Shown: piece after piece, positions 8,220 to 29,495 of the stretch
Layout: every line of letters starts with the position of its first letter
Position numbering within the stretch: the stretch's first letter is position 1
Assembly: GCF_029233945.1 (NCBI RefSeq)
Contig: NZ_JARGOQ010000018.1
Location: 1-62,489 of the forward strand
Source of the DNA: Sneathiella sp.
GTDB taxonomy: Bacteria > Pseudomonadota > Alphaproteobacteria > Sneathiellales > Sneathiellaceae
Length of the DNA stretch: 62,489 nt
Direction of reading: 5' to 3'
The notes under the pieces: model-generated
The model's input: only the letters and a program-made list of their open reading frames with translations
Told to the model about the DNA's origin: nothing
Database searches by the model: none
Made by a program: the position numbers and the translations under genes

Positions 8220-9194
8220 TTAGCGTGTCTTCTTGCGTTTTGATCCGGTCAGCTTTTCAAGCGGGGTGGCCAGCAACCCCTTCGGCAGCAGGACAACGCT
8301 GATCATGAAGGCAATGCCGAGAATCAGGATCCAGTAGTCCCCGAAGATTTCTGAGAGCCAGCTTTCCGCCGTTCGGGTCAGGATCGCGCCAAGAAACGCC
8401 GCGAGCAGCATCTCCTTGCCGCCGATGGCCACCCAGATCAACGCCTCCGTTGAGAGGGTGAAACCGATCAGGGTGGGGGAGGCAAACCCATCCAGTGTGA
8501 CGAAGATTGCCCCGGCGAGCCCGGCAATGGCCGCGCTTAGCGCGAAAACCGAGAGCCGGATCGTCAGCACGTTATAGCCAAGCGACGCCAGCCGGTCCGG
8601 ATGGGTGCGGATCGCTGTCAGCCTCAGGCCATAGGCGGAACTGAGCAGCCAGGTAACAAGGAAATAAACGAGAGCGACAACGGCAAGAACGGCATAGAAT
8701 GTCGGCATCCTGTCCCAAAGCTCAAAACTCGCCCCAAAGAAGTTGAGCTTGATCGGCGGAACATTGAGCAGGCCGTTATAGCCGCCGAGCGCGTACCAGT
8801 TATTCATCAGCCGTTCCAGCACCAGCGCCATGGCAAGGGTGATGATGGCAAGATAGGCGCCGCTGATGCCGCGGCCGGCAAACAGGAAATAACCAAGCGC
8901 GAGGGCAAAGAGTGCCGATCCCGCCATGGCGGCGATCAGGCCGAGATAGCTGCTGGTCAGCTCTGGCAGAATCATGCCCTTGGTCAGGACCGCCATGATA
9001 TAGCCCCCGATCCCGAAGAACATCGCCTGCCCAAAACAGAGGATGCCGCCATATCCCCAGACAAGCGAGAGAGACATGGCAAGCAGGCCATAGACGAGAT
9101 AGGCGGTGAGCTGTCCCGTCCAGTAACCGCCAATCGCGACCGGAGAGGCGGCGAGGACTGCAAAAACCAGAAGGGCGATCAGGTTATTTCGCAC
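8220..9194 (-). CDS. ABC transporter permease, LivM/UrtC type
   Basis: 324 residues of about ten hydrophobic segments, matching inner-membrane permeases of the branched-chain amino acid / urea / amide uptake family (LivM, UrtC). The family blocks YGGILCFGQAMFFGIGGY, SGAYLAIITLA and SLGYNVLTIRL are visible, and it ends in a basic tail. The start is a GTG overlapping the upstream permease gene by 11 bases. It is the last gene of the four-gene minus-strand transporter operon; the ATPases in the operon are Urt-like, so the cargo is more likely urea- or amide-like than a branched-chain amino acid. Confidence 0.9.
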   Translation of the reverse strand: MRNNLIALLVFAVLAASPVAIGGYWTGQLTAYLVYGLLAMSLSLVWGYGGILCFGQAMFFGIGGYIMAVLTKGMILPELTSSYLGLIAAMAGSALFALALGYFLFAGRGISGAYLAIITLAMALVLERLMNNWYALGGYNGLLNVPPIKLNFFGASFELWDRMPTFYAVLAVVALVYFLVTWLLSSAYGLRLTAIRTHPDRLASLGYNVLTIRLSVFALSAAIAGLAGAIFVTLDGFASPTLIGFTLSTEALIWVAIGGKEMLLAAFLGAILTRTAESWLSEIFGDYWILILGIAFMISVVLLPKGLLATPLEKLTGSKRKKTR

Positions 9195-10044
9195 GGCGCC
9201 CTCCCATGATGCCTTCGGGTTTCAGCCGGATGATCAGGATGGCAATGATATAGACTGTGATCAGGGCGGCGACCGGCGATATCCAGACCGCAAGCAGGTT
9301 ATTCACACCGCCAACGACGGCGCCGCCGACCAACACGCCCGCGAGCGGCCCGGCGCCGCCGACAAGGATGGAAAGGAACCCCGGCACCAGATAGCCAAGA
9401 CCCATCTGCGGATCGACACTGATAATCGGGGCGACAAGAGCCCCGGCAAGTCCCGCAAGCGCAGTGCCGATCACGAAGCTCCACCGATACATCCGCCGGG
9501 TGTCAATCCCGAGCGAGGCGGCGGTGTTTGGGCGGGCAATCACGGCGCGGGCCAACAGGCCGAAATCGGTGCGGGTAAAGAGCCAGAATGTACCGCCGAT
9601 TAGCAGGATGGATGCCGCCATCAGGATCAGCCGATAAAGCGGATAGCTGAACGCGCCTAGTTCAAGGCTGCCGTCAACGGGGAGGGCCACACTATGGGAT
9701 TCCGGCCCGAAAGTGAGCACCACAAGCTGTTTCAGCGCAATGGACAGGCCCCAGGTCGCCAAAATGGTATCGAGCGGTCTGAGATAGATATGGCGGATGA
9801 GCGCCGCCTCGATCAGCAGGCCGAGAAAGCCGACAATGATCGGCGCGAGGATGATCCCGGCCAGGAAAGGGAGTCCTAAGTTTTGCGCCGCGACCATCAC
9901 ATAGGCGCCGATCATGAACAGCTCCCCATGCGCCATATTGATGACCCCCATCATGCCGAAGACGATCATCAGCCCGAGCGCGACCAGAACGAGGATGAGG
10001 ATATATGAGCTGACATCAAGGATTATGGGGATAAGTTCACTCAT
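9184..10044 (-). CDS. ABC transporter permease, LivH/UrtB type
   Basis: 286 residues, the second permease of the importer. Family features seen are GLMIVFGMMGVINMAHGEL near the N-terminus and LGLPF/PLDTILATWG blocks, with eight or so membrane segments. It has no large extracytoplasmic extension such as some UrtB proteins carry. It is 12 bases downstream of the UrtE-like ATPase gene and overlaps the second permease gene by 11 bases, so all four are co-translated and the heterodimeric channel is made stoichiometrically. Confidence 0.91.
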   Translation of the reverse strand: MSELIPIILDVSSYILILVLVALGLMIVFGMMGVINMAHGELFMIGAYVMVAAQNLGLPFLAGIILAPIIVGFLGLLIEAALIRHIYLRPLDTILATWGLSIALKQLVVLTFGPESHSVALPVDGSLELGAFSYPLYRLILMAASILLIGGTFWLFTRTDFGLLARAVIARPNTAASLGIDTRRMYRWSFVIGTALAGLAGALVAPIISVDPQMGLGYLVPGFLSILVGGAGPLAGVLVGGAVVGGVNNLLAVWISPVAALITVYIIAILIIRLKPEGIMGGRRAK

Positions 10045-10056
10045 CAGATTAACATC

Positions 10057-10758
10057 CTAAACCGAGAGATAGCGATGCAGCAGGCTGTCATCCTGGCGCA
10101 ACGTCTCTATATCGCAGCGTTCCTGTATCGCCCCGTTTTCCATGAACAGCACTTCATCGGCGAGGGTGCGGACCATATCGACATTCTGTTCCACGATCAG
10201 AATACTGAGGCCGGTCTCACGCGCGATACGGCTAAGCTGAGCACCGATGTCATGGACGATACTGGGCTGTATCCCCTCCGTCGGCTCATCAAGGAGGAGC
10301 ATTTTCGGCCCGCCGATCAAGGCCCGTGCGATGGCAAGGATTTGCTGTTGTCCGCCCGAGAATGTTCCGGCGCGTTGCTCGGCCCGTTCTTTCAGGATCG
10401 GAAACCAGTCATATATCTGTTCAATCGGGAGAACATTTCCGCCTTCATGACCCAAGAGGCTAAGGCGCAGATTTTCCGCGACGGTGAAATCGGCGAAAAT
10501 CTCGCGGCCCTGCGGCACATATCCCATACCGATGCGGGAAATATGATGGGTCGGCAGCTTCTCGATGGCAGTTCCGTCAAACATGATCCGGCCCGATTTT
10601 ACCCGGATCAGCCCCATGATGGTTTTCATCAGGGTTGTTTTCCCCATGCCGTTCCGGCCCATCAGGGCGGTCACCTTGCCGGGCGCAATCCGGCAGGAAA
10701 AATCGCGAAGGACCAGAGCTTCCCCATAGCCGGCGGCGAGGTTTTCGATTTCAAGCAT
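10057..10758 (-). CDS. ABC transporter ATP-binding protein, UrtE/LivF type
   Basis: 233 residues. Walker A GRNGMGKTT is at 34-42, the ABC signature FSGGQQQILAIARAL and Walker B LLLDEPTEGIQP follow. The stretches TLMKTIMGL and YVPQGREIF resemble UrtE of urea importers more than LivF. It powers the inner-membrane importer together with the UrtD-like subunit. The start overlaps the upstream ATPase gene by 8 bases. Assignment to the family is firm; assignment to urea itself is not. Confidence 0.92.
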   Translation of the reverse strand: MLEIENLAAGYGEALVLRDFSCRIAPGKVTALMGRNGMGKTTLMKTIMGLIRVKSGRIMFDGTAIEKLPTHHISRIGMGYVPQGREIFADFTVAENLRLSLLGHEGGNVLPIEQIYDWFPILKERAEQRAGTFSGGQQQILAIARALIGGPKMLLLDEPTEGIQPSIVHDIGAQLSRIARETGLSILIVEQNVDMVRTLADEVLFMENGAIQERCDIETLRQDDSLLHRYLSV

Positions 10759-11470
10759 CGCTCAACGCCTCTGCCTGGCCGAAATAGAGGGCCTTCACCT
10801 CTGCGTCCTTGCGAATATCGGCAAAATGTCCGGATTTCAGGATCTGCCCCTTCGACATCACATGAAGCGGACAGGCGAGATGCTCAATAAAGCCCATGTC
10901 ATGCTCGATCACCAGTACGGTTATGCCCTGATCGCGGTTGATGCGGGTGATCAGGTCGGCTGTCGCGCGGGTTTCCGCCGCCGTCATGCCTGCCGTTGGC
11001 TCATCCAGCAAAATAAGGGACGGGGCCTGGGCCAGCAGGAGGCCGATCTCAAGCCATTGTTTCTGGCCATGGGCGAGTTCACCAGCGAGCATATGCTCCG
11101 CTTCGATCAGGTTAATCTGCGCGAGAATGCCGTTGATAGCCGCACGGTTCGCGGTGTTTCTGGCGGCGATAACCAGATTTTCGCGGATTGTGAGTTCCTC
11201 AAAAATGGCGGGCACCTGGAACTTGCGACCAACGCCAAGACGGGCAATTTTATGCGACGGCCAGCCTGTGATATTATGCTCTTTGAAGCAAACCTTGCCA
11301 GCATCCGGTTTCAGGACCCCGGTGATCAGATTGAAGAGCGTTGATTTCCCGCAGCCATTCGGTCCGACAAGAGCATTCAGGCTGCCTTCCTCAATCGTGA
11401 GCGTGAAATCATCGACGGCACGAAGACCGCCAAAATTTTTGCATAGCGACTTCAATTCAAGAAAAGACAT
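10751..11470 (-). CDS. ABC transporter ATP-binding protein, UrtD/LivG type
   Basis: 239 residues, first gene of the minus-strand transporter operon. Walker A GPNGCGKST is at 36-44 and Walker B LILLDEPTAGM is clear. The block GVGRKFQVPAIFEELTIRENL is the form found in UrtD; LivG proteins usually have RTFQ there. The signature motif LAHGQKQWLEIGLLLA also matches UrtD. Transcription starts in the palindrome-rich spacer shared with the divergent substrate-binding protein gene. Confidence 0.92.
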   Translation of the reverse strand: MSFLELKSLCKNFGGLRAVDDFTLTIEEGSLNALVGPNGCGKSTLFNLITGVLKPDAGKVCFKEHNITGWPSHKIARLGVGRKFQVPAIFEELTIRENLVIAARNTANRAAINGILAQINLIEAEHMLAGELAHGQKQWLEIGLLLAQAPSLILLDEPTAGMTAAETRATADLITRINRDQGITVLVIEHDMGFIEHLACPLHVMSKGQILKSGHFADIRKDAEVKALYFGQAEALSDA

Positions 11471-11521
11471 GCATGCTTCGCCGATTCAGTTTATTTTATA
11501 TGCATACGTACAAATTAAGAA

Positions 11522-11551
11522 CGTGCACATACAAAGTTTAATATGTGTACG
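11522..11551. promoter_or_regulatory. Inverted repeat in the transporter divergent promoter region
   Basis: CGTGCACATA (11522-11531) and TATGTGTACG (11542-11551) are inverted copies matching at 9 of 10 positions, with a 10-base spacer. They are 52 bases upstream of the UrtD-like gene. The 20-base centre-to-centre geometry suits a dimeric regulator, but no regulator gene is adjacent. Confidence 0.4.
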
Positions 11552-11593
11552 GTTGAATTTTTAGTATTTTTTCATCAAAAACCGGGCAATATG

Positions 11594-11607
11594 CCGATAT
11601 ATATCGG
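11594..11607. promoter_or_regulatory. Perfect 14-bp palindrome CCGATATATATCGG
   Basis: A perfect palindrome in the middle of the 250-base divergent spacer. It is preceded by a smaller inverted repeat GGCA-ATA-TGCC. Candidate operator shared by the two divergent promoters; the protein that would bind it is unknown. Confidence 0.4.
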
Positions 11608-11634
11608 TAATTATTTGATTCTTTTACGGTAACT

Positions 11635-11683
11635 GGCATAACCATGCACAATTCAATTTAACAAACAACTGTTTTGTTATGCC
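11635..11683. promoter_or_regulatory. Inverted repeat GGCATAAC...GTTATGCC upstream of the binding-protein gene
   Basis: Perfect 8-bp arms at 11635-11642 and 11676-11683 enclose a 33-base AT-rich loop. The right arm ends 37 bases before the ATG at 11721. It could be a pair of half-sites or form a stem in the leader transcript. Confidence 0.35.
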
Positions 11684-11720
11684 GGAACTTCGGTATTTTA
11701 ACGATTGCGAGGATAAAGCG

Positions 11721-12890
11721 ATGATCGAGATTTCCAGACGAAAATTCATGGGCGCGGTGGGTGCGACTGCGGTTGCATCAACATTTGGCATGCCGGCAAT
11801 TGCCGCAGGGAAGACCATCAAGATCGGCGCGGTGCAGCCTTTCTCCGGCGGTCTGGAACTGTTCGGTAATCAGGCGAAAATGGGCCTCGACCTCGCCGTT
11901 GCTGAAATCAACGCAGGCGGCGGCATCATGGGCCATCAGGTGGAAATGCTCTATGAAGATGGCAAGACGGATCCAAAAACCTCCGTTGAGAAGGCGAAAA
12001 AGCTGATCGAGCGCGATGAGGTTATGGCGATTTCCGGCCCGATCACGTCTGCCGGACGCGATGCGATGGCGGCCACGATGGAACGGGGCAAGACACCGCT
12101 TCTTTATGCAACCAACTATGAAGGTGGTATCTGCAACCGCTATCTCTTCTCCTTCAACACGGTGCCGAACCAGGATACAGCGCCACTCATTCCGTATCTG
12201 AAAGAAGAGGGGCTGGGGGACAGCTACTATATGTTCGGGGCGGATTATGTCTGGCCGCGTAACATGTTCAAGACGGCGAAGGGAATTATCGGCGGCGTCG
12301 GCGGCACGACCGTTGGCGAGGAATATACCCCCTTCGGCGTCAAGGACTTCTCCTCCATCATTCGTAAAATCGCGGATTCGGGGGCGAAAATACTGTTGTT
12401 TGCGCTGCCGGGCGCAGACGGCATCACCTTTATCAAGCAGGCGGAAGAATTCGGCCTGACCAAGAAAATGACCATTGCCTTCCTTGGCTTCGCGGAAACC
12501 TATCTCGGGGCGTTCGGTGAAGGCAAGGGCGAGGGGATGTATGCCGGGGTTCCGTTCGTGGCGAGGTCGCCTGAGCCGGGTGTGCAGGATTTTGTTGCCA
12601 AGATCCGCAAGGCAAATGGGGATGATGCGGTTGTTTCCTTCTATGTGATGACCCATTATAATTCCCTGATCGCGCTGAAGGGCGGGCTGGAGAAGGCCGG
12701 TAAGGTCGATAAGGAAGCCCTGATCGACGGGATGGCCGGACTGTCGTTTGAAATCCCGACGGGACCGGCGATGATCACCAAGGAGGATCATCACGTTGCC
12801 ATGAATATGTATATCGCCCGGACGAGCAACGGCACCTTGAACATCGCGAAAAAACTTGGTGTTATCGACCCCGCGCCACAATGCGGATAA
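11721..12890 (+). CDS. Tat-exported amide/urea-type ABC substrate-binding protein
   Basis: 389 residues. ATG at 11721 is chosen because gagga sits 7 bases before it and because it starts a Tat signal: SRRKFMG at 5-11, a short hydrophobic stretch, then PAIAAG. An ATG-like start further up (11679) would add an implausible tail. The mature protein is a Peripla_BP_6/5 two-lobed receptor resembling UrtA, AmiC and FmdD, with YATNYEGGICNRYLF and a C-terminal DHHVAMNMYI. It would deliver cargo to the divergent Urt-like importer. It is followed 13 bases later by a nicotinamidase-like hydrolase, which suggests an amide as cargo. Confidence 0.9.
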   Translation: MIEISRRKFMGAVGATAVASTFGMPAIAAGKTIKIGAVQPFSGGLELFGNQAKMGLDLAVAEINAGGGIMGHQVEMLYEDGKTDPKTSVEKAKKLIERDEVMAISGPITSAGRDAMAATMERGKTPLLYATNYEGGICNRYLFSFNTVPNQDTAPLIPYLKEEGLGDSYYMFGADYVWPRNMFKTAKGIIGGVGGTTVGEEYTPFGVKDFSSIIRKIADSGAKILLFALPGADGITFIKQAEEFGLTKKMTIAFLGFAETYLGAFGEGKGEGMYAGVPFVARSPEPGVQDFVAKIRKANGDDAVVSFYVMTHYNSLIALKGGLEKAGKVDKEALIDGMAGLSFEIPTGPAMITKEDHHVAMNMYIARTSNGTLNIAKKLGVIDPAPQCG

Positions 12891-13677: not shown

Positions 13678-14466
13678 ATGACAATCACGGCAAACGGCAC
13701 TGAATTTGAAACCAGCTTTGAAGGGCCGGAGGGCGCGCCTGTCGTCACGATGAGTCATTCGCTTTGTTGCGATCTGTCCGCCTGGGATGAACTGGCCGGG
13801 GATCTGAAAAAAGATCACCGCGTGCTTCGTTATTCGCTGCGCGGCCATGGAAAGAGCGCGCCGGTGCCGGGGCCTTATGATTTCAGGATGCTGGCGGCTG
13901 ATGTGGCGGCGATACAGGATGCTTACGGGGTGACGGAAAGTCATTTTGTCGGCCTGTCCATCGGCGGCATGATCGCGCAGGAATTTGCCCTTAACTATCC
14001 CGAACGGACATTGAACCTCGTGATTTCGAGCTCTCTCTGTGCGCTTCCCGATGGCGCGGCGGCGCTCTGGCCTGAACGGATCAGATTGGCGGCGGAAGAG
14101 GGGCTGGCCGCGACGGTTGATCCAACCATGTCCCGCTGGTTCGTCGAAGGCTCCCTTGGCGACCGGCCGGAACTTGATGCGCGGGTGCGCAAGATGATCG
14201 TCGAGACGTCCGTGGAGGGGTATATCGGCTGCTGCCATGCCATCGCGGGCATCGATCTCAAGGACCGCATCCCGGCGATACGGGCGAAAGCGCTCGTCAT
14301 TGTCGGACGGGAGGATATGGGCACACCGCTCAGCTCGTCCGAGTTGATCCACCGGCAGATCGAAGGATCAAAGCTGGTGGTCATTGATAATGCGGCGCAT
14401 CAGCTTGCCATCGACAAACCCGAAGAGTTCAACCGCCATGTCCGGACACATCTCGCGTCCGTCTAG
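13678..14466 (+). CDS. Alpha/beta hydrolase, 3-oxoadipate enol-lactonase-like
   Basis: 262 residues. The nucleophile elbow GLSIGG gives Ser94; GREDMGTP supplies the acid region and DNAAHQLAIDKPEEF the catalytic His, in PcaD order. PcaD-type enzymes open enol-lactones, and relatives such as NicD deformylate N-formylmaleamate, so a role after the nicotinamidase-like enzyme is plausible but unproven. A good aaggagggatc precedes the ATG. The stop overlaps by four bases the stop of the S-formylglutathione hydrolase on the other strand. Confidence 0.86.
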   Translation: MTITANGTEFETSFEGPEGAPVVTMSHSLCCDLSAWDELAGDLKKDHRVLRYSLRGHGKSAPVPGPYDFRMLAADVAAIQDAYGVTESHFVGLSIGGMIAQEFALNYPERTLNLVISSSLCALPDGAAALWPERIRLAAEEGLAATVDPTMSRWFVEGSLGDRPELDARVRKMIVETSVEGYIGCCHAIAGIDLKDRIPAIRAKALVIVGREDMGTPLSSSELIHRQIEGSKLVVIDNAAHQLAIDKPEEFNRHVRTHLASV

Positions 14467-15302
14467 CTTTTCTTCAGGATGGAGACATGATGGCGGATAT
14501 GATCTTCCATAAATGTCTGGATGAAGTAATAGCTGTGATCGTAACCGTCATGTAGCCGGAGGGTGAGGGGCTGTCCCGCTTCCTTGCAGGCGGCCTCGAA
14601 TATTTCCGGCTTTAACTGCTCGGTCAGGAACTGGTCGGCCTTGCCCTGATCGATCAGGATATGCGACGCGCGGTGACCGTTCTTCACAAGCTCGGTCGCG
14701 TCATATTCGATCCAGCTCGCCTTGTCCGTCCCGAGATATCCGGTGAAGGCCTTCTCCCCCCAGGGGCACTGCATCGGCGATGAAATCGGTGCGAAAGCGG
14801 AAACGGATTTATAGATTTCCGGATTTTTAAGCGCGATAGTGAGCGCACCATGCCCGCCCATGGAATGCCCGAAAATGCCGGTCAGGTCGACATCGGCGTT
14901 GAAATTTTCATTGATCAGGAGGCGAAGCTCGTCCCGGACATAGCTGTACATCCGGTAGCTTCCGGCCCATGGCTCCTTCACCGCATCAAGATAGAACCCC
15001 GCTCCGGTCCCGAAATCCCAGTCATCTTCCTCCCCCGGCAAACCATCCCCGCGCGGGCTGGTATCGGGCATCACGAGCATAACCCCAAGCTCCGATGCGA
15101 TCCGTTGCGCGCCTGCCTTGATAGTGGCGGTTTCCTCCGTGCAGGTGAGACCCGCAAGATAATAGAGAACGGGGACTTTCATCCCGTGCGCCTGTTGCGG
15201 CTGGAAGACGGCGAAGCGCATATTTGTCCCGGTTACCGAGGACTTATGCGCATAGAACCCTTGCGTGCCGCCGAAACAGGCCTGTTCTGAAATAGTTTCC
15301 AT
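14463..15302 (-). CDS. fghA: S-formylglutathione hydrolase
   Basis: 279 residues, the usual length. It hydrolyses S-formylglutathione to formate and glutathione, the second step of glutathione-dependent formaldehyde oxidation. Seen are the esterase-D family blocks PVLYYLAGLTCTEE, DTSPRG and the nucleophile GHSMGG (Ser147). It is 9 bases downstream of the class III alcohol dehydrogenase gene on the same strand, which is the classical pair. Cytoplasmic. Confidence 0.96.
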   Translation of the reverse strand: METISEQACFGGTQGFYAHKSSVTGTNMRFAVFQPQQAHGMKVPVLYYLAGLTCTEETATIKAGAQRIASELGVMLVMPDTSPRGDGLPGEEDDWDFGTGAGFYLDAVKEPWAGSYRMYSYVRDELRLLINENFNADVDLTGIFGHSMGGHGALTIALKNPEIYKSVSAFAPISSPMQCPWGEKAFTGYLGTDKASWIEYDATELVKNGHRASHILIDQGKADQFLTEQLKPEIFEAACKEAGQPLTLRLHDGYDHSYYFIQTFMEDHIRHHVSILKKS

Positions 15303-15311
15303 AATCTCGCT

Positions 15312-16421
15312 TTAAAAAGTAACGACGCCGCGGATGGACTTGCCTTCATGCATCAGGTCGAAGCCCTCGTTGATCTTTTCGATCGGCATGACATGGGTAA
15401 TCAGGTCATCGATATTGATTTTGCCATCCATATACCAGTCGACGATTTTCGGAACGTCCGTGCGCCCCTTCGCGCCACCGAAGGCCGTGCCTTTCCAGAC
15501 GCGCCCGGTCACCAACTGGAACGGCCGGGTGGAGATTTCCTGACCCGCACCCGCAACGCCGATAATGATACTCTCGCCCCAACCCTTGTGACAGCATTCG
15601 AGCGCCTGACGCATGACATTGACATTGCCGATGCATTCAAACGAATAATCCGCGCCGCCCTTGGTGAGATCGACAAGATAGGGAACGATATCGCCCTCGA
15701 CTTCTGTCGGGTTGACGAAATGGGTCATGCCGAACTTCTCGCCAAGCTCTTTCCGCGCCGGATTGAGATCGACGCCGACGATCATGTCCGCCCCGGCGAG
15801 CCGCGCGCCCTGAATGACATTAAGGCCGATGCCGCCAAGACCGAAGACGACGACATTATCGCCGGGTTTTACCTTCGCCGTATTGATGACCGCGCCGATC
15901 CCCGTGGTGACGCCGCAGCCGATGTAACAGACCTTGTCGAACGGCGCATCCTCGCGGATTTTGGCGAGCGCGATTTCCGGCACCACCGTATAGTTTGCGA
16001 AGGTGGAGCAGCCCATATAGTGAAAGACTTTCTCGCCATTGATCTTGAACCGGCTGGAGCCATCCGGCATCAGCCCCTGACCTTGCGTGACCCGGATTGC
16101 CTGACAGAGATTGGTCTTGCCGCTGGTGCAGTAATCGCATTGCCGGCATTCAGGGGTATAGAGCGGAATAACATGATCGCCTTTTTTGAGGGACGTCACG
16201 CCGGGTCCCACATCGACGACGATGCCTGCGCCTTCATGGCCGAGAATAGCCGGAAAAATACCTTCCGGATCCTCGCCGGAGAGGGTGAAGGCGTCCGTAT
16301 GGCACAGGCCGCTTGCCTTGATCTCGACCAGAACCTCGCCCTCGCGCGGGCCGTCGAGAGTGACCGTTTCGATGGTGAGAGGGGCTCCGGCTTTATGGGC
16401 GACCGCTGCTTTTACGTCCAT
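15312..16421 (-). CDS. adhC: S-(hydroxymethyl)glutathione dehydrogenase / class III alcohol dehydrogenase
   Basis: 369 residues. It oxidises S-hydroxymethylglutathione (from formaldehyde plus glutathione) to S-formylglutathione with NAD+; class III enzymes also reduce S-nitrosoglutathione. The catalytic zinc region is GLCHTD and GHEGAG, the structural zinc cysteines are [16 protein letters not shown], and GLGGIGL is the NAD-binding loop. It heads a two-gene formaldehyde-detoxification operon. A short spacer of 115 bases separates it from the divergent mtnA; I see no clear operator in it. Confidence 0.96.
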
Positions 16422-23436: not shown

Positions 23437-23769
23437 TCAGTAACTCTTGACGCCCGGCACCCGGCATTCATAGGTCGTATAGACCTGCTCCAGAAGGCAT
23501 GCGTTATTTACGCTTATAACAAGATTGCCCTTGCAGTCATTGAAGGATACCCATCCTTCAATATGATCGATGCGCCCGCCACCGACACCATTGCCGTCAT
23601 AAATATTGAGGATTGAGACGTCCTTGATCCGTTCTTTCAGGATAGCGAGACTGGCGATTTCATTCTCGATCTCATTTTGACAACGTCCGCTGACAAGATC
23701 GGCGGAAGCCACAGTGACGAAGGCTACGGAAAGGCATAAGGCGACAAGCGGGGTAAACAGGTGGCGCAT
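23437..23769 (-). CDS. Small secreted four-cysteine protein, unknown function
   Basis: 110 residues. ATG at 23769 is chosen because ccggag lies 7 bases before it and it opens a standard signal peptide (MRHLFTPLVALCLSVAF, ending VASA). The mature ~88 residues contain four cysteines (RCQNE, NDCKG, NACLL, YECR), fit for two disulfides in the periplasm. I recognise no family. It stands alone between paaE and the methyltransferase gene, oriented like the latter. Confidence 0.7.
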   Translation of the reverse strand: MRHLFTPLVALCLSVAFVTVASADLVSGRCQNEIENEIASLAILKERIKDVSILNIYDGNGVGGGRIDHIEGWVSFNDCKGNLVISVNNACLLEQVYTTYECRVPGVKSY

Positions 23770-23856
23770 GATAAACTCCGGAAAAGGCTCATATCTTACA
23801 GCTAGGCCGAAACCGCGCCCAGACAATATGTCTATGGTAATATTTTCTGAGCAGTC

Positions 23857-25404
23857 CTAGAAATCCGTTTTGACGCCACCCGCCGCAATCCGCTTGTCGA
23901 TGAATTCGTTCAGTTCCTCCAACCGGGCCGGATCATGGGCGGGCGGCTCATATTCCGCGAGGATGGATTTATAGATGGTGTTCGCGCGCTTCATGGCATC
24001 GGGGGCGCCCGCCTCGACCCAGCTTTCATAATTTCGCCAATCGGAGAGGATCGGTTCGTAAAAGGCGGTCTGGTATCGCTCCTGCGTATGCTGGGTGCCA
24101 AAGAAATGCCCGCCATGACCGGCCTCCCGCATGGCATCAAGGCCAAGGGACTCAGGCGAGGTATCAATAGGCTTCATCATCTCGATCATCATCTGGATCA
24201 TCTCCACATCCATGATCACCTTCTCGAAACTGGCACTGAGGCCGCCTTCCAGCCAGCCCGCAGAATGCTTGACGAAATTGGCGCCGCCAAGGACGAGGGA
24301 CCAGAGCGACATCTCGGATTCGTAAGCCGCTTGTGCATCCGGGGCGTTTGAGGCGTTCACGTTGGAGGACCGAAAGGGAATGCCATAGCGGCGGATCAAC
24401 TGACCGCTGGCCATGGTCGCCTTGGCATATTCCGGTGTGCCGAAGGCGGGTGCGCCGGACTTCATATCGACATTGGAGGTAAAGCCGCCATAGACGACCG
24501 GCGCGCCGGGCCGCACGGTCTGCGCAAGGCTCATCCCGGCGAGGGCTTCCGCATTCTGCTGGGCGAGCGCCCCCGCCAGCGTGACCGGCGCCATCGCGCC
24601 CGAAAGTGTGAAAGGGGTCAGCATCACCACCTGGCCATGCTTCGCCATCTCGATAATACCTTCCAGCATGGGTTGATCCAGCATCAGGGGGGAATTGGAA
24701 TTGATGATGGTAAAGAGGCTTGGCTGCGTTAGCATCTCTTCATGGCTGATGCCGCGCATGATGCGCGCCATCTCGATCCCGTCGAGATTGCGGTCGCGCC
24801 CGAGGGAATAGATATAAGGCACTTTCTCGGTTAAGGTCGCATAGTCCCGTCCGCATTCCAGATGCCGGATGGAGGCGTGGATATCAACCGGCTCGACCGG
24901 ATAGCCGCCGCTGGACCCAAGGATATTAAGGCTCTGGGTCAGTTTCAGGAAGTTTCGGAAATCCTTCCGGTTGCCGGTTCGCCGGCCGCCATCCATATCC
25001 ATGGCATTGGGCGTGCTGGCCACCATCGAGAAGACGAGGTTTCGGCCGCCGATGTCTAGGTCGCATTCCGGGTTTGGGGCATGCAGCGTAAATTCTGACG
25101 GGGCATGGGACATCGCCTCCATCACGAAATCCCGGTCGAAATAGACGATATGCGTCTCCTCGTCGACTTTCTGCCCTGCTTTTTTCAGGATATCCCGCGC
25201 TTCGGGCAGGCGCACCATGATGCCGATATTTTCCAGGATATCCATGGAGGCGTTATGGATGTCCTCCACCTGATCTTCGGAGAGGAGTTCGACAGGCTTA
25301 AAAGTATTCACCACTTTTTGGCGGGGAAGTTGGGTGAAGCTCGCCTTGACCCGATGGCCGCGCCGGGAGCGTCGTCCGGAAGACCGTTCATTTCCTGCTG
25401 CCAT
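23857..25404 (-). CDS. Trimethylamine methyltransferase (MttB) superfamily protein, non-pyrrolysine
   Basis: 515 residues of the COG5598/MttB superfamily. Archaeal MttB uses an in-frame amber codon read as pyrrolysine; here the reading frame is uninterrupted, so this is the pyrrolysine-free type. Characterised members of that type demethylate quaternary amines such as glycine betaine, proline betaine or carnitine, passing the methyl group to a corrinoid protein. A basic N-terminal tail (Arg-rich, about 18 residues) precedes the barrel. It is last in a likely three-gene unit after two flavin oxidoreductases. No corrinoid protein is visible nearby. Confidence 0.88.
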   Translation of the reverse strand: MAAGNERSSGRRSRRGHRVKASFTQLPRQKVVNTFKPVELLSEDQVEDIHNASMDILENIGIMVRLPEARDILKKAGQKVDEETHIVYFDRDFVMEAMSHAPSEFTLHAPNPECDLDIGGRNLVFSMVASTPNAMDMDGGRRTGNRKDFRNFLKLTQSLNILGSSGGYPVEPVDIHASIRHLECGRDYATLTEKVPYIYSLGRDRNLDGIEMARIMRGISHEEMLTQPSLFTIINSNSPLMLDQPMLEGIIEMAKHGQVVMLTPFTLSGAMAPVTLAGALAQQNAEALAGMSLAQTVRPGAPVVYGGFTSNVDMKSGAPAFGTPEYAKATMASGQLIRRYGIPFRSSNVNASNAPDAQAAYESEMSLWSLVLGGANFVKHSAGWLEGGLSASFEKVIMDVEMIQMMIEMMKPIDTSPESLGLDAMREAGHGGHFFGTQHTQERYQTAFYEPILSDWRNYESWVEAGAPDAMKRANTIYKSILAEYEPPAHDPARLEELNEFIDKRIAAGGVKTDF

Positions 25405-25428
25405 GGTTATTTCCTTTCGGGGCTAAGA

Positions 25429-27846
25429 CTATCCTCGCATCCGCGACGCGGTGGGGTCGAGCAGGGGGTCCAGCACCATTTTTGCGGGTCGCATTTCCCC
25501 TAGGATTTCAATCTCGAAGTCACCGCCGTCTTCAATCATTTCAGGCGGAGTGAAGCCGATGGCGACGGATTTTTCGACATAATGGGCAAAACCGCCGGAG
25601 GTCACGAAGCCGACAATCTTGCCATTTTTCCAGATCGGCTCATCCCCATGCACATCGGCATCGAGCGCCTCAATGACGAAGGTGGAGAGTTTGCGTTTAA
25701 CACCCTCCGCCTTTTCTTTCAGGACGGCCGCCTTGCCGATAAAATCGGCGGGCTTGTTATAGGAAACAAAACGATCGAGTCCGGTTTCCTCCGCCGTGTA
25801 GTCGGGCTTGAACTCGCTGAGCCAGGAACCGAAGGATTTCTCCAATCTAAGGCTCATCATCGCGCGCATGCCGAACGGGGTGAGGCCGAATTCCACGCCC
25901 GCCTCGGCCAGCACTTCATAAAGGCCGATCTGCTCATCTGCGGGCACATAAATCTCATAGCCGAGATCGCCGGTATAGGTCACCCGCTGGACAATGGCGT
26001 CTGACAGGCCAACGCCCATGCGTTTCACCGCCATGAAAGGAAAGGCCTCTGTCGAGACATCCTCATAGGTGACTTTGGCGAGGAGATCGCGCGCGCGGGG
26101 CCCTGCAATCTGAAACCCGATCCGTTTGAGGCTGACATTCTCGATCTCGACGCCCTCTTCCGGCAGGTGGTCCCAGAACCAGCGAAGGTGATATCCTTGC
26201 GCCCCGAAGGAGGCGGTAAGCTGGAACTCTTCTTCGGCCAGCCGGGCAATGGTAAAATCGCCAATCAATCGCCCCTTCGGGCTCAGCATGGGGCTCAGGC
26301 TCATGCGCCCAACCTTGGGCACGCGCCCCGCCATGATCATATCGATCCAGTCCGCCGCCTTGGGGCCGGTCACCTTGTATTTGCCGAAGTTATGGATTTC
26401 GGTGATGCCGACTTTCTCCCGCACGGCCTTGCATTCGGCGGCAACCGCACCAAAGGCGTTGGAGCGACGGAAGGAGGGTGTTTCAAGTAACGGCTCCCCT
26501 TCCGGGGCGAAGTAATTGACCGCCTCCATCCCGTAGCCCTGCCCAAAGACAGCGCGCTGTTCTTTCCAGATGGAATAGGCAGGCGTCGTCTGGAAGGGGC
26601 GCGCGGCGGGCAGCTCCTCATTGGGGTAGGAGATGCTGAAGCGCCGCTGGTAATTTTCGGTGACTTTTTTCCGCGCATAAGGACGGGAGCAATAGTCGCC
26701 ATAGCGCGCGACATCCATGGCGAAGACATCGCGCGACGGTTCGCCCTCGATCATCCATTCGGCAAGCGTCAGCCCGACACCGCCACCCTGACTAAAGCCC
26801 GCCATCACGGCGCAAGCCGACCAGTAATTCTTGAGCCCCGGCACCGGTCCGACCAGCGGGTTGCCATCGGGGGCAAAGGTGAAGGGGCCATTGATGACAT
26901 TCTTGACGCCCGCCGTCTCCAGCACGGGGAAGCGGTTGAAGGCAAACTCCATGCTGTCGCCGATGCGGTCCAGCTTGTTCGGCAGCAGTTCATGGCCGAA
27001 ATCAAGCGGGGTGCCGTTGACCGCCCAGGGATCGCATTCCTGCTCGTAAAAGCCGATGACGAGGCCGCGCCCCTCCTGCCTTAAATAACTTTCCCCCTCC
27101 GGATCCATGACATGGGGGTGCTCCCGCCCGAGTTCATAGATTTCCGGGATATCCTCGGTCACCAGATATTGATGCTCCATCGGATGCAGCGGCAGGAAGA
27201 TGCCGACCATCTCGCCCAGCTCCCGCGCCCAGAGGCCGCCCGCATTGACCACATATTCCGCATGGATCGTGCCGTCCTTGGTGACAACCTGCCAGCTACC
27301 GTCCGTTTGAGGGTTGAGTTCCAGCACCGGATTGCGAAGGTAAATCTCCGCGCCGAGCTTGCGGGCGCACATGGCGTAGGCATGGGTGGTGCCGGACGGA
27401 TCGAGATGGCCGTCCAGCGGATCATAAAGCCCGCCGATCACACCCTCGATATTGGTGATCGGCGCGAGTTTCTTGATCTCCTCAGGTCCCACAAGATGGG
27501 TATCAAGGCCCATATAGCGATGTTTCGCCCGTTCGGTCTTGAGGTAATCCATCCGGTCGGGCGTCCCCGCAAGCGTAATGCCGCCGACATGATGCAAACC
27601 GCAGGATTGACCCGACAGTTCCTCCAGCTCTTTATAGAGCTTGATGGTGTACCCTTGCAGGGCCGAGATATTGGTATCGGAGTTGATGGTGTGAAACCCG
27701 CCGGCGGCGTGCCAGGTGGAGCCCGACGTCAGTTCGGAGCGTTCAATCAGTGCGATGTCGGTCCAGCCGAGCTTGGCAAGATGATAGAGGACGGAACAGC
27801 CGACAACGCCCCCACCGATGACGGCGACCTTAACATGGGATTTCAT
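25429..27846 (-). CDS. Dimethylglycine/sarcosine dehydrogenase-like flavoprotein with GcvT domain
   Basis: 805 residues, the full length of the DMGDH/sarcosine dehydrogenase family. The N-terminal DAO domain begins with IGGGVVGCS (9-17) and has the TWHAAG motif (His46), where family members bind FAD covalently. A central FAO domain is followed, from about 430, by a GcvT-type folate-binding barrel that traps formaldehyde as 5,10-methylene-tetrahydrofolate. It should oxidatively demethylate an N-methyl amino acid. The gene is 24 bases upstream of the MttB-like gene and 30 bases downstream of the other oxidoreductase. Confidence 0.9.
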   Translation of the reverse strand: MKSHVKVAVIGGGVVGCSVLYHLAKLGWTDIALIERSELTSGSTWHAAGGFHTINSDTNISALQGYTIKLYKELEELSGQSCGLHHVGGITLAGTPDRMDYLKTERAKHRYMGLDTHLVGPEEIKKLAPITNIEGVIGGLYDPLDGHLDPSGTTHAYAMCARKLGAEIYLRNPVLELNPQTDGSWQVVTKDGTIHAEYVVNAGGLWARELGEMVGIFLPLHPMEHQYLVTEDIPEIYELGREHPHVMDPEGESYLRQEGRGLVIGFYEQECDPWAVNGTPLDFGHELLPNKLDRIGDSMEFAFNRFPVLETAGVKNVINGPFTFAPDGNPLVGPVPGLKNYWSACAVMAGFSQGGGVGLTLAEWMIEGEPSRDVFAMDVARYGDYCSRPYARKKVTENYQRRFSISYPNEELPAARPFQTTPAYSIWKEQRAVFGQGYGMEAVNYFAPEGEPLLETPSFRRSNAFGAVAAECKAVREKVGITEIHNFGKYKVTGPKAADWIDMIMAGRVPKVGRMSLSPMLSPKGRLIGDFTIARLAEEEFQLTASFGAQGYHLRWFWDHLPEEGVEIENVSLKRIGFQIAGPRARDLLAKVTYEDVSTEAFPFMAVKRMGVGLSDAIVQRVTYTGDLGYEIYVPADEQIGLYEVLAEAGVEFGLTPFGMRAMMSLRLEKSFGSWLSEFKPDYTAEETGLDRFVSYNKPADFIGKAAVLKEKAEGVKRKLSTFVIEALDADVHGDEPIWKNGKIVGFVTSGGFAHYVEKSVAIGFTPPEMIEDGGDFEIEILGEMRPAKMVLDPLLDPTASRMRG

Positions 27847-27876
27847 GATCTCTCCCCCTTCTTTAGTTCATTTCTT

Positions 27877-29181
27877 CTATCCAAGGACAGTAAAGCTGCT
27901 GTCCTGGCTGACCTCCCGGTTGCGCGAAAAAGTACCCATGGAAAGGTCATAATCGATATTTTCAAGATGAAAATGGACCGGATCAATATCATGGTCGCGG
28001 CCCGCCTCGCATTCACGGATCAGCTTTTCCATCATTCGCCCGGCGACCGGCGCGTTCTTGAACTGGTTGCCGCTGGTCCCGATGGCGAGGTAATATCCGC
28101 CCAGGCTCGATTTATCGTAGATCGGCACCCAGTCCCGGGTCACATCATAGAGCGCGACAACGCCCTTGGTTTGGCGCGGGACGCCCATCTCCGGGAAGCG
28201 CTGCGCAAGGCGCAATACTTGCGCGTTCCATTGCTCGGTAAAGTCCTCGTTGAAATTATCGGGATCGACCCATTCCTGCGTGTCGCATTTCGGATCCTCC
28301 GATCCGATCAGGATATGATTGCCAAGCTCCGGCCGACAGTAAATTCCGGCATCGCTGTCAGACAAGACCACGCCATCGGTCTCGAAATCAAACCCTGCGG
28401 GAGAGGGGACATGCGCGACCTCATGACGAAGAGCGCGGGTGGTCATCTTCATATCCTCCAGCACACCCGCCATTTCATTGATTTTGCCCGAGTGCGGCCC
28501 GGCGACATTGACCACGATTTCCGCATCAATCTCGGTGCCGTCCTTTAACGTAACGCCAGTGACATGGCCCTCTTCCTGCCGGATCGCCACGACTTCGGCG
28601 TTGAATTTGAAAGTCGCGCCATGAGCCTCCGCTGCAACTTGCGCATTATGGGCGGCAAGCTGCGGGTCACTGACATAGCCCCCCCGCGGGAAAAAGACGC
28701 CGCCCGGCACACTTTCGCCTGTCGGCTCGCCAAAGGCGGGATCATCGGGCCGTTTTACCGGCGCAAACTGATGTGTATCAATAATCGGCAGCTTTTCATG
28801 CATCTGTTCCGGCGTCAGATCTTCATAAGGACAGCCGATCTTGTCCATCAGGGCGCAGATTTTCCGCATATAGTCGTTATGCGGGGTCTTCACGATCAGC
28901 GCGCCGGTATCATGATATTTAATCAGGCCCTTTTCATCCTCCACCCCGACATAGTCGGCCCAGTTCTTCCAGTAGAACCAGCCCTCATAGGCGAGGGCGC
29001 AGGTATCCAGCGCGGAATAATAGGTGCGGATGATGGCGCAGGAGGCGGAAGTGGAACCAAAACCGGAGGCAGGCAGGCGGTCGATGGACAGAACCTTGCG
29101 TCCGGCCTTTGAGAGTTCATAGGCAATGCAGGCTCCGATAACCCCGGCGCCGATTATGACGGCATCAAATTTATCGCTCAT
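27877..29181 (-). CDS. FAD-dependent oxidoreductase, DAO family
   Basis: 434 residues. The start at 29181 gives MSDKFDAVIIGAGVIG, placing the Rossmann GAGVIGA at 11-17, and is backed by a gggaga upstream; an earlier start at 29265 lacks support. The DAO fold oxidises amino acids, sarcosine-like amines or glycerol-3-phosphate. The motif GFGSTSASCAIIRTYYS resembles the flavin-linking region of sarcosine oxidase beta subunits. It is first in the operon with the DMGDH-like and MttB-like genes, so it likely acts on a methylated amine intermediate. Confidence 0.86.
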   Translation of the reverse strand: MSDKFDAVIIGAGVIGACIAYELSKAGRKVLSIDRLPASGFGSTSASCAIIRTYYSALDTCALAYEGWFYWKNWADYVGVEDEKGLIKYHDTGALIVKTPHNDYMRKICALMDKIGCPYEDLTPEQMHEKLPIIDTHQFAPVKRPDDPAFGEPTGESVPGGVFFPRGGYVSDPQLAAHNAQVAAEAHGATFKFNAEVVAIRQEEGHVTGVTLKDGTEIDAEIVVNVAGPHSGKINEMAGVLEDMKMTTRALRHEVAHVPSPAGFDFETDGVVLSDSDAGIYCRPELGNHILIGSEDPKCDTQEWVDPDNFNEDFTEQWNAQVLRLAQRFPEMGVPRQTKGVVALYDVTRDWVPIYDKSSLGGYYLAIGTSGNQFKNAPVAGRMMEKLIRECEAGRDHDIDPVHFHLENIDYDLSMGTFSRNREVSQDSSFTVLG

Positions 29182-29495
29182 CGGCTGTATCTCCCATACC
29201 GCTTGCCTTGTGATTTCCTCAACTATTTCCCTGTGGAAGAGCCCATGCAAGCGGAAACTGCTCAAGTTAAGAACATCGGTATGAAAAAATTAATGTCATG
29301 TCGTTTTCATAAAAAAGCGGGTCGGCAGGGTGTAAATTGTCATGGCTGCAGATCAAAGGCAGGGGCCGAAATTTTCGCGATTTTGACATTTTGATGACAG
29401 AGTCGCAGAGAGAATAATCCTAAACAGGCTCCCGGCGGGCTTTAATTCATGGCATAATAATTTCAAATATCAGAAGTGCGGGGGAGTATCGAGTT
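29182..29495. other. Intergenic spacer, divergent promoters with TGTCA half-sites
   Basis: No convincing gene. It holds repeated TGTCAT (29294-29299, 29338-29343) and the inverse ATGACA (29394-29399) with TGACA at 29384-29388. It must contain the promoter of the methylated-amine operon on the left and that of the glucosaminidase gene on the right. A short open frame (29203-29394) has no ribosome site and atypical composition. Confidence 0.5.

Follow-up and report, generated by a model that had tools for sequence, protein, structure and literature searches.

The window analyzed here is a 62,489-nucleotide stretch of the Sneathiella sp. assembly GCF_029233945.1 (contig NZ_JARGOQ010000018.1, positions 1–62,489; contig C63 below). 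It contains an operon of three genes, one of which encodes an MttB-family methyltransferase (the window MttB). Most likely, these genes form a cassette at the periphery of the MtgBCD system, which is aerobic and depends on cobalamin, with the corrinoid acceptor MtgC encoded in trans. The three genes are:

23857–25404, minus strand: MttB-family methyltransferase gene (open frame of 515 amino acids (aa); PF06253)
25429–27846, minus strand: dimethylglycine dehydrogenase (DMGDH)-like FAD/GcvT flavoprotein gene (open frame of 805 aa; Pfam architecture)
27877–29181, minus strand: DAO-superfamily FAD oxidoreductase gene, first of the operon (434 aa from ATG; PF01266)

All three frames are intact in the open-frame listing of the window, which for the DAO gene also includes a longer TTG start at 29265. 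The intergenic gaps are 30 bp (DAO/DMGDH-like) and 24 bp (DMGDH-like/MttB). An initial annotation had described these genes as an apparent operon; the gene order is kept in all eight of the other same-genus loci with this operon that were inspected, so the arrangement is not due to chance. That annotation also reported no corrinoid gene near the operon, and profile searches with PF02607, PF02310, and PF00809 likewise gave no match on C63. It left open whether the partner is encoded elsewhere in the genome or another methyl acceptor is used, and the findings below favor the former.

Corrinoid module in the Sneathiella genome

Besides MetH, the PF02607 search of this genome recovered a single free protein, located where contig C81 ends, and three pterin-binding proteins were found (on C51, in MetH, and on C114). 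Along its 4.2 kb, contig C114 encodes the C-terminal part of a B12-binding protein, followed by DUF1638, PF13769, an MTHFR C-terminal protein (MetV), MetF2, an MtgD-like protein, and the start of a RamA-like protein. The free corrinoid protein is split between the two contigs, with residues 2–104 on C81 (96% to the protein of same-genus genome G007) and residues 169–232 on C114 (98%). The G007 homolog is complete at 232 aa; it has both B12 domains as well as a D-x-H-x-x-G motif within GDIHDIGKNL; this motif presumably binds the corrinoid. The genome search for MtgC-like proteins suggested by the initial annotation hence yielded one free corrinoid protein of the kind used by the MtgBCD system. 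The MtgD-like protein on C114 is a free pterin-binding protein (PF00809, 103 bits; PRK07535, 377.6 bits against a cut-off of 259), and the Pfam matches to RACo_linker/Fer2 (cut by the contig end), DUF1638, and MTHFR identify the RamA-like, DUF1638, and MetF2 components. The RamA-like gene of G007 is complete and has the RACo domains.

In the Sneathiella genome, MtgC adjoins a second MttB gene (MttB2; C81:3161–4699), which also has its own DMGDH-like gene (DMGDH2) beside it. Of five stretches from the same genus or family around an MttB2 ortholog, four (L129, L133, L145, and L146; genomes G007, G008, G002, and G006) have the order MttB2-DMGDH2-MtgC-DUF1638-PF13769-MetV-MetF2-MtgD unbroken, and L142 does not. 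Six same-genus genomes (G004, G007, G008, G009, G020, and G022) have a window-type MttB and DUF1638 on one contig, 39–56 kb apart. Because the Sneathiella genome holds a full MetH that includes an activation domain, the corrinoid module is not needed for methionine. Hercynine, considered as the MttB2 substrate given that hut genes neighbor this MttB on C81, was rejected: around the MttB2/MtgC block of L146 the stretch covered shows none of them, and the HutC gene of L145 is about 2.4 kb more distant. With the partners found on other contigs, the puzzle of the missing corrinoid partner largely dissolves at genome scale.

This gene content resembles that of the aerobic MtgBCD pathway for glycine betaine demethylation in Ruegeria pomeroyi (Mausz et al., 2025, PNAS; PMC12478193), which makes outdated the view in the initial annotation that MttBs without pyrrolysine act in anaerobes. 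According to that paper, R. pomeroyi depends on MtgC and MtgD both to use glycine betaine and to make methionine, its mtgC and mtgD mutants fail to grow on glycine betaine even when methionine is supplied, and two pfam06253 proteins, RamA, DUF1638, and MetF2 rise on N-osmolytes. The likeness to this MtgBCD(E)/split methionine synthase system of R. pomeroyi and other aerobes lies in the joint presence of pfam06253, free MtgC, MtgD, RamA-like, DUF1638, and MetF2 proteins in one genome and in the aerobic setting, the comparison being one of gene content and not of alignment to R. pomeroyi proteins. In contrast to R. pomeroyi, the window operon is unlinked from MtgC, the window MttB is a second paralog, and a full MetH with an activation domain is also present. 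For MttB paralogs that have different substrates and one corrinoid protein in common, Eubacterium limosum (MtpB, MtcB, MtyB, and MthB) provides a precedent: MtpB, MtcB, and MtyB all use MtqC (PMC12155760). The likeness to this organism, an anaerobic acetogen, is one of description and not of sequence.

Co-occurrence of MttB and DUF1638

Among the 25 genomes of the order-level scan, 21 have MttB and 20 have DUF1638. All four that lack MttB (G003, G012, G016, and G019) lack DUF1638 as well, and the sole mismatch (G017) is 66% complete and has an MttB fragment of 32.8 bits. In the class-level scan of 289 genomes, for which up to about five MttBs per genome were scored, 66 genomes have MttB and 62 have DUF1638; both are present in 61, MttB only in five, DUF1638 only in one, and neither in 222. 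DUF1638 is accordingly present in 61 of the 66 MttB-positive genomes and in one of the 223 MttB-negative genomes (Fisher p ~2e-55, calculated over related genomes). The genome with DUF1638 only (G130) has four PF02607 frames. DUF1638 is single-copy in 60 of the 62 genomes that carry it, and many of these hold several MttBs.

Within the genus, MttB lies beside the phenylacetyl-CoA epoxidase gene PaaE in 11 genomes (G000, G004, G007, G008, G009, G013, G015, G020, G021, G022, and G024), all of which have DUF1638. For G015 and G021, MttB and PaaE were confirmed and not the whole cassette; the partial MttB matches in G014 and G018 were not typed. Taken together, DUF1638 (PF07796) looks like a helper of corrinoid methyltransferases, one that in the Sneathiella genome stands alongside a complete MetH.

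Phylogeny and active-site loop of the window MttB

The window MttB belongs to the MttB superfamily, with a PF06253 (MTTB) match of 674.5 bits (cut-off 25) over positions 1–499 of 500. As the initial annotation stated, it is free of pyrrolysine: the frame has no in-frame stop, Val349 aligns to the pyrrolysine of MttB 7XCL, and the match to TIGR02369 (pyrrolysine trimethylamine methyltransferase) is 312.3 bits, below the equivalog cut-off of 525. The window gene and MttB2 are the two MttBs found in the genome and are 41% identical to each other. The window MttB is also 41% identical to PDB 4YYC and 39% to 2QNE, the MtgB of Desulfitobacterium hafniense (also 9YCE), a glycine betaine:corrinoid methyltransferase of the same superfamily that has no pyrrolysine either. 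For MttB2, the identities are 68% (4YYC) and 45% (2QNE).

A quick tree was built from 53 of 181 sequences (72% redundancy cut, with frames outside 430–600 aa excluded beforehand), with branch support from the Shimodaira–Hasegawa-like approximate likelihood ratio test (SH-aLRT) alone and with one long outgroup row flagged. MttB2 and 4YYC fall in a clade of five rows and the window MttB, outside this MtgB-like clade, in one of 43 rows (SH-aLRT 100 each), within which its position is not resolved. At the pyrrolysine position, the loop of the 43-row clade mostly reads SSN(V/A/T)-(N/C)A(S/A)N and, relative to MtgB, has one residue fewer; the gap placement varies with the alignment. Asn occupies, in 95% of these rows, the position where MtgB 2QNE, MttB 7XCL, and the five MtgB-like rows carry Lys. 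In comparison with the MtgB of D. hafniense, an anaerobe, the window MttB differs in clade and in its shortened loop, where Gly-Gly and Lys are replaced. No published name for this clade was recognized in the literature available under certain licenses. The anomaly itself is covered by the published system; what is new here is the distinct clade with its altered active-site loop.

Based on these sequence features, the window MttB is proposed to be a non-pyrrolysine quaternary amine:MtgC methyltransferase, and its substrate probably differs from that of the MtgB-like MttB2. A role of the operon in the use of quaternary amines, as the initial annotation had suggested, is likely. A broader reading, which we consider an even call, is that the window MttB exemplifies a large subfamily of aerobic quaternary-amine demethylases apart from MtgB, with a remodeled loop and a substrate new to MttBs, in which many copies are paired with their own flavoprotein demethylase and feed one shared MtgC.

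Further MttBs were observed in related stretches. Members of a distant clade (22–27% identity to the window MttB) lie near window-type MttBs at L056:2712, L082:2427, and L073:5471 and, as judged by identity, in L051, L083, and L091. The distant-clade gene in L082 directly follows another DMGDH-like gene. In addition, a further MttB-DMGDH pair is found at L138:9160–13111 and L139:9159–13167 (same-genus genomes G008 and G022), and its MttB is about 50% identical to the MtgB-like one.

Flavoproteins and neighborhoods of related MttBs

The initial annotation had predicted two demethylating flavoproteins, one of them a full DMGDH-like enzyme with FAD and GcvT folate domains. The latter is well borne out: the 805-aa protein has the DAO + FAO_M + GCV_T + GCV_T_C architecture over residues 6–797, and its best PDB match is mitochondrial dimethylglycine dehydrogenase (5l46; 667 bits over residues 3–803), a full-length similarity. 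It contains an SGSTWHAAG motif, the His of which presumably carries covalent FAD. It is proposed, from this architecture, to be an oxidative demethylase of a tertiary amine. For the 434-aa protein, membership of the DAO superfamily was found (PF01266, 173 bits), and its role as a demethylase is putative. None of the 25 NCBIfam matches listed reaches its cut-off, and those for demethylating oxidases are far below it (N-methyl-L-tryptophan oxidase, 87.4 versus 257; soxA_mon, 73.7 versus 479.65). This protein may perform a second demethylation or oxidize the product amine.

The neighborhoods of related MttBs were compared in the best 80 of 594 confirmed relatives from GTDB genomes, with codon-scored gene calls. 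A DMGDH-like gene lies within 3.5 kb of the MttB in 35 of the 71 loci whose flanks each reach at least 3.5 kb and in two of the nine shorter loci. Relatives of the DAO protein with >40% identity occur near the MttB in two of the 80 loci; relatives of the protein are found near MttB/DMGDH genes in L065 and L094. Other neighbors include M24 peptidase, isochorismatase-family, mandelate-racemase-family, alpha/beta hydrolase, and ABC transporter genes, and plasmid neighborhoods vary. One Shinella stretch has no annotation, and no annotated MttB is present in two further stretches. These neighborhoods give no single substrate answer.

These comparisons bear on a rival explanation, in which the window gene encodes another glycine betaine methyltransferase (MtgB), working with dimethylglycine and sarcosine demethylases. 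It overlaps with the proposed MtgC-dependent cassette and differs in the substrate alone. The DMGDH-like partner is indeed closest to dimethylglycine dehydrogenase among solved structures, and the two R. pomeroyi pfam06253 proteins mentioned above rose during N-osmolyte growth. However, the Sneathiella genome already has an MtgB-like enzyme, MttB2, beside MtgC and its own DMGDH-like gene, and the window MttB belongs to a separate clade with different loop residues. Moreover, the two DMGDH-like proteins have 330 of 803 aligned residues in common, and related MttBs in other species have varied catabolic neighbors. We therefore consider this explanation unlikely.

Evidence bearing on the methyl acceptor

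Alternatively, the window MttB may need no corrinoid protein and pass the methyl group to another acceptor, be it tetrahydrofolate itself, free cobalamin, or a different protein. The lack of a corrinoid gene in or near the operon would fit such an enzyme, as would the shorter loop with Asn in place of the Lys common to MtgB and MttB. Two genomes, G169 and, in pieces, G030, have MttBs of this kind, with no DUF1638 or free corrinoid protein found.

Several observations weigh against a corrinoid acceptor in trans. In the Sneathiella assembly, the middle 64 residues of MtgC, including the B12-binding motif, are missing at the C81/C114 break, and that these contigs adjoin is inferred from relatives. 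Even the complete G007 homologs score below NCBIfam cut-offs: the best model for MtgC is MtgC_2 (207.7 versus 370), and the RamA-like protein reaches 402.7 versus 800 for AcsV and 111.2 versus 500 for RamA. In G001, from another genus, MttB2 lies apart from the module. The altered active-site loop could also mean altered chemistry. As for the co-occurrence pattern, the genomes are related, so the shared presences of MttB and DUF1638 are not independent events, and DUF1638 is a mere proxy for MtgC.

Four of the five class-level genomes with MttB only belong to the same side of the balance and lack a clean resolution; the fifth, G116, is explained by its free corrinoid frame (236 aa). G169 (93% complete, 120 contigs) has full-length MttBs, one of them about 50% identical to the window MttB, and its corrinoid frame is of MetH length only. 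G030 (93% complete) has two pieces that are 56% identical to the window MttB and cut by contig ends, a third with a frame change, and a sole PF02607 frame of 984 aa. In G231 (99% complete), the MttB (28–33% identical) is cut off at a contig end, and the sole PF02607 frame is 989 aa. G085 (95% complete) has no PF02607 match; its main MttB (L193:1052–2404), a single 450-aa open frame, is MtgB-like (46–52% to MttB2) and misses about 77 profile positions. As clean examples of MttB without a corrinoid protein these four genomes were rejected, since none is clean, and none is fully explained. In G085, another MttB copy is broken by an in-frame TAG, and the 450-aa frame is possibly decaying.

Despite these points, another acceptor appears highly improbable and is the part of the initial annotation that was not supported. 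The genome encodes one free corrinoid protein together with MtgD, RamA-like, and DUF1638 proteins, and the association of MttB with DUF1638 is near-complete in the class-level scan and also holds within the genus, including all 11 genomes with MttB beside PaaE. Of the two genomes in its favor, G169 has a congener with DUF1638 (G249), and G030 consists of 810 contigs with 7% contamination. Given this tracking and the match to an aerobic MtgBCD system, a new acceptor is unlikely, with a few draft genomes unexplained.

Conservation of the cassette

The operon is flanked on one side by phenylacetyl-CoA epoxidase genes (Pfam/NCBIfam); the other side holds genes that we take, from our own reading and with no database match behind the labels, to be Bax, GT438, CpaA, and CpaC. 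The DAO/DMGDH-like/MttB order is kept in eight other same-genus genomes (G004, G007, G008, G009, G013, G020, G022, and G024). All of these loci have PaaE on one side of the operon, and seven have the Bax-labeled gene on the other; the G013 stretch starts at the operon. Across these loci, identity is 78–95% for the MttB and 86–96% for the DMGDH-like protein. Eight other same-genus genomes (G002, G003, G005, G006, G010, G016, G019, and G023) lack the operon at the PaaE site, and there PaaE and the GT438-labeled gene are about 1.8–3.2 kb apart, with the Bax-labeled gene present in G002 (matches with <38% identity were left out of these maps). The unit gained or lost therefore corresponds approximately to the three genes. 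The three genes are a discrete cassette, for which gain and loss are indistinguishable. The patchy presence at this site might suggest a decayed or unused copy, yet with three intact frames and with the sequence identity and gene order kept in eight other loci, this is hardly credible. This conserved quaternary-amine demethylation cassette is real and very probably relies on a corrinoid acceptor in trans.

A small gene after the MttB gene (23437–23826; 129 aa) encodes a secreted-looking protein with no Pfam match. It was rejected as a fourth operon gene because homologs (38–42% identity) occur at cassette-free sites (L214, L216, and L217; genomes G003, G016, and G019). Whether or not the cassette is present, homologs occur at this locus, and L132, L136, and L144 have two copies. 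Elsewhere in the window, genes for S-formylglutathione hydrolase and S-(hydroxymethyl)glutathione dehydrogenase (14463–16421; both above NCBI cut-offs) could handle formaldehyde from oxidative demethylation; in L213, such genes lie near the epoxidase genes with no cassette. An ABC transporter of the urea/branched-chain-amino-acid type (8220–12890; best models UrtA–E, all below cut-offs) is kept near the cassette in G007 (L128).

Proposed pathway and implications

We infer the following route, including the use of MtgC by the window MttB, the order of steps, and the role of the DAO protein. The window MttB would move one methyl group from a betaine-type quaternary amine to the Co(I) of MtgC, from which MtgD would transfer it to tetrahydrofolate (H4F), and MetF2/MetV would oxidize the resulting methyl-H4F to methylene-H4F. 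The DMGDH-like enzyme may then oxidatively take a methyl group off the tertiary amine, also yielding methylene-H4F. The next methyl group may be removed by the same enzyme or by the DAO protein, or the latter may oxidize the amine. RamA and DUF1638 would keep the cobalt reduced.

Mausz et al. (2025; PMC12478193) report up to seven pfam06253 genes per genome and propose that the extra paralogs may act on further methylated compounds through this same pathway, a proposal that the window cassette fits. This does away with an apparent exception, namely an MttB lacking a corrinoid partner, and such partners should be sought genome-wide, as one corrinoid hub can serve MttB cassettes located elsewhere on the chromosome. 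The link between MttB and DUF1638 would also explain a puzzle in Price et al. (2018; PMC5764234). That study found that the split methionine synthase requires RamA-like and DUF1638 proteins, and gave no explanation for their presence in some bacteria that have a standard MetH. If the separate clade has substrates of its own, many aerobes would possess B12-dependent routes for methylated nitrogen compounds that are now annotated as trimethylamine methyltransferase.

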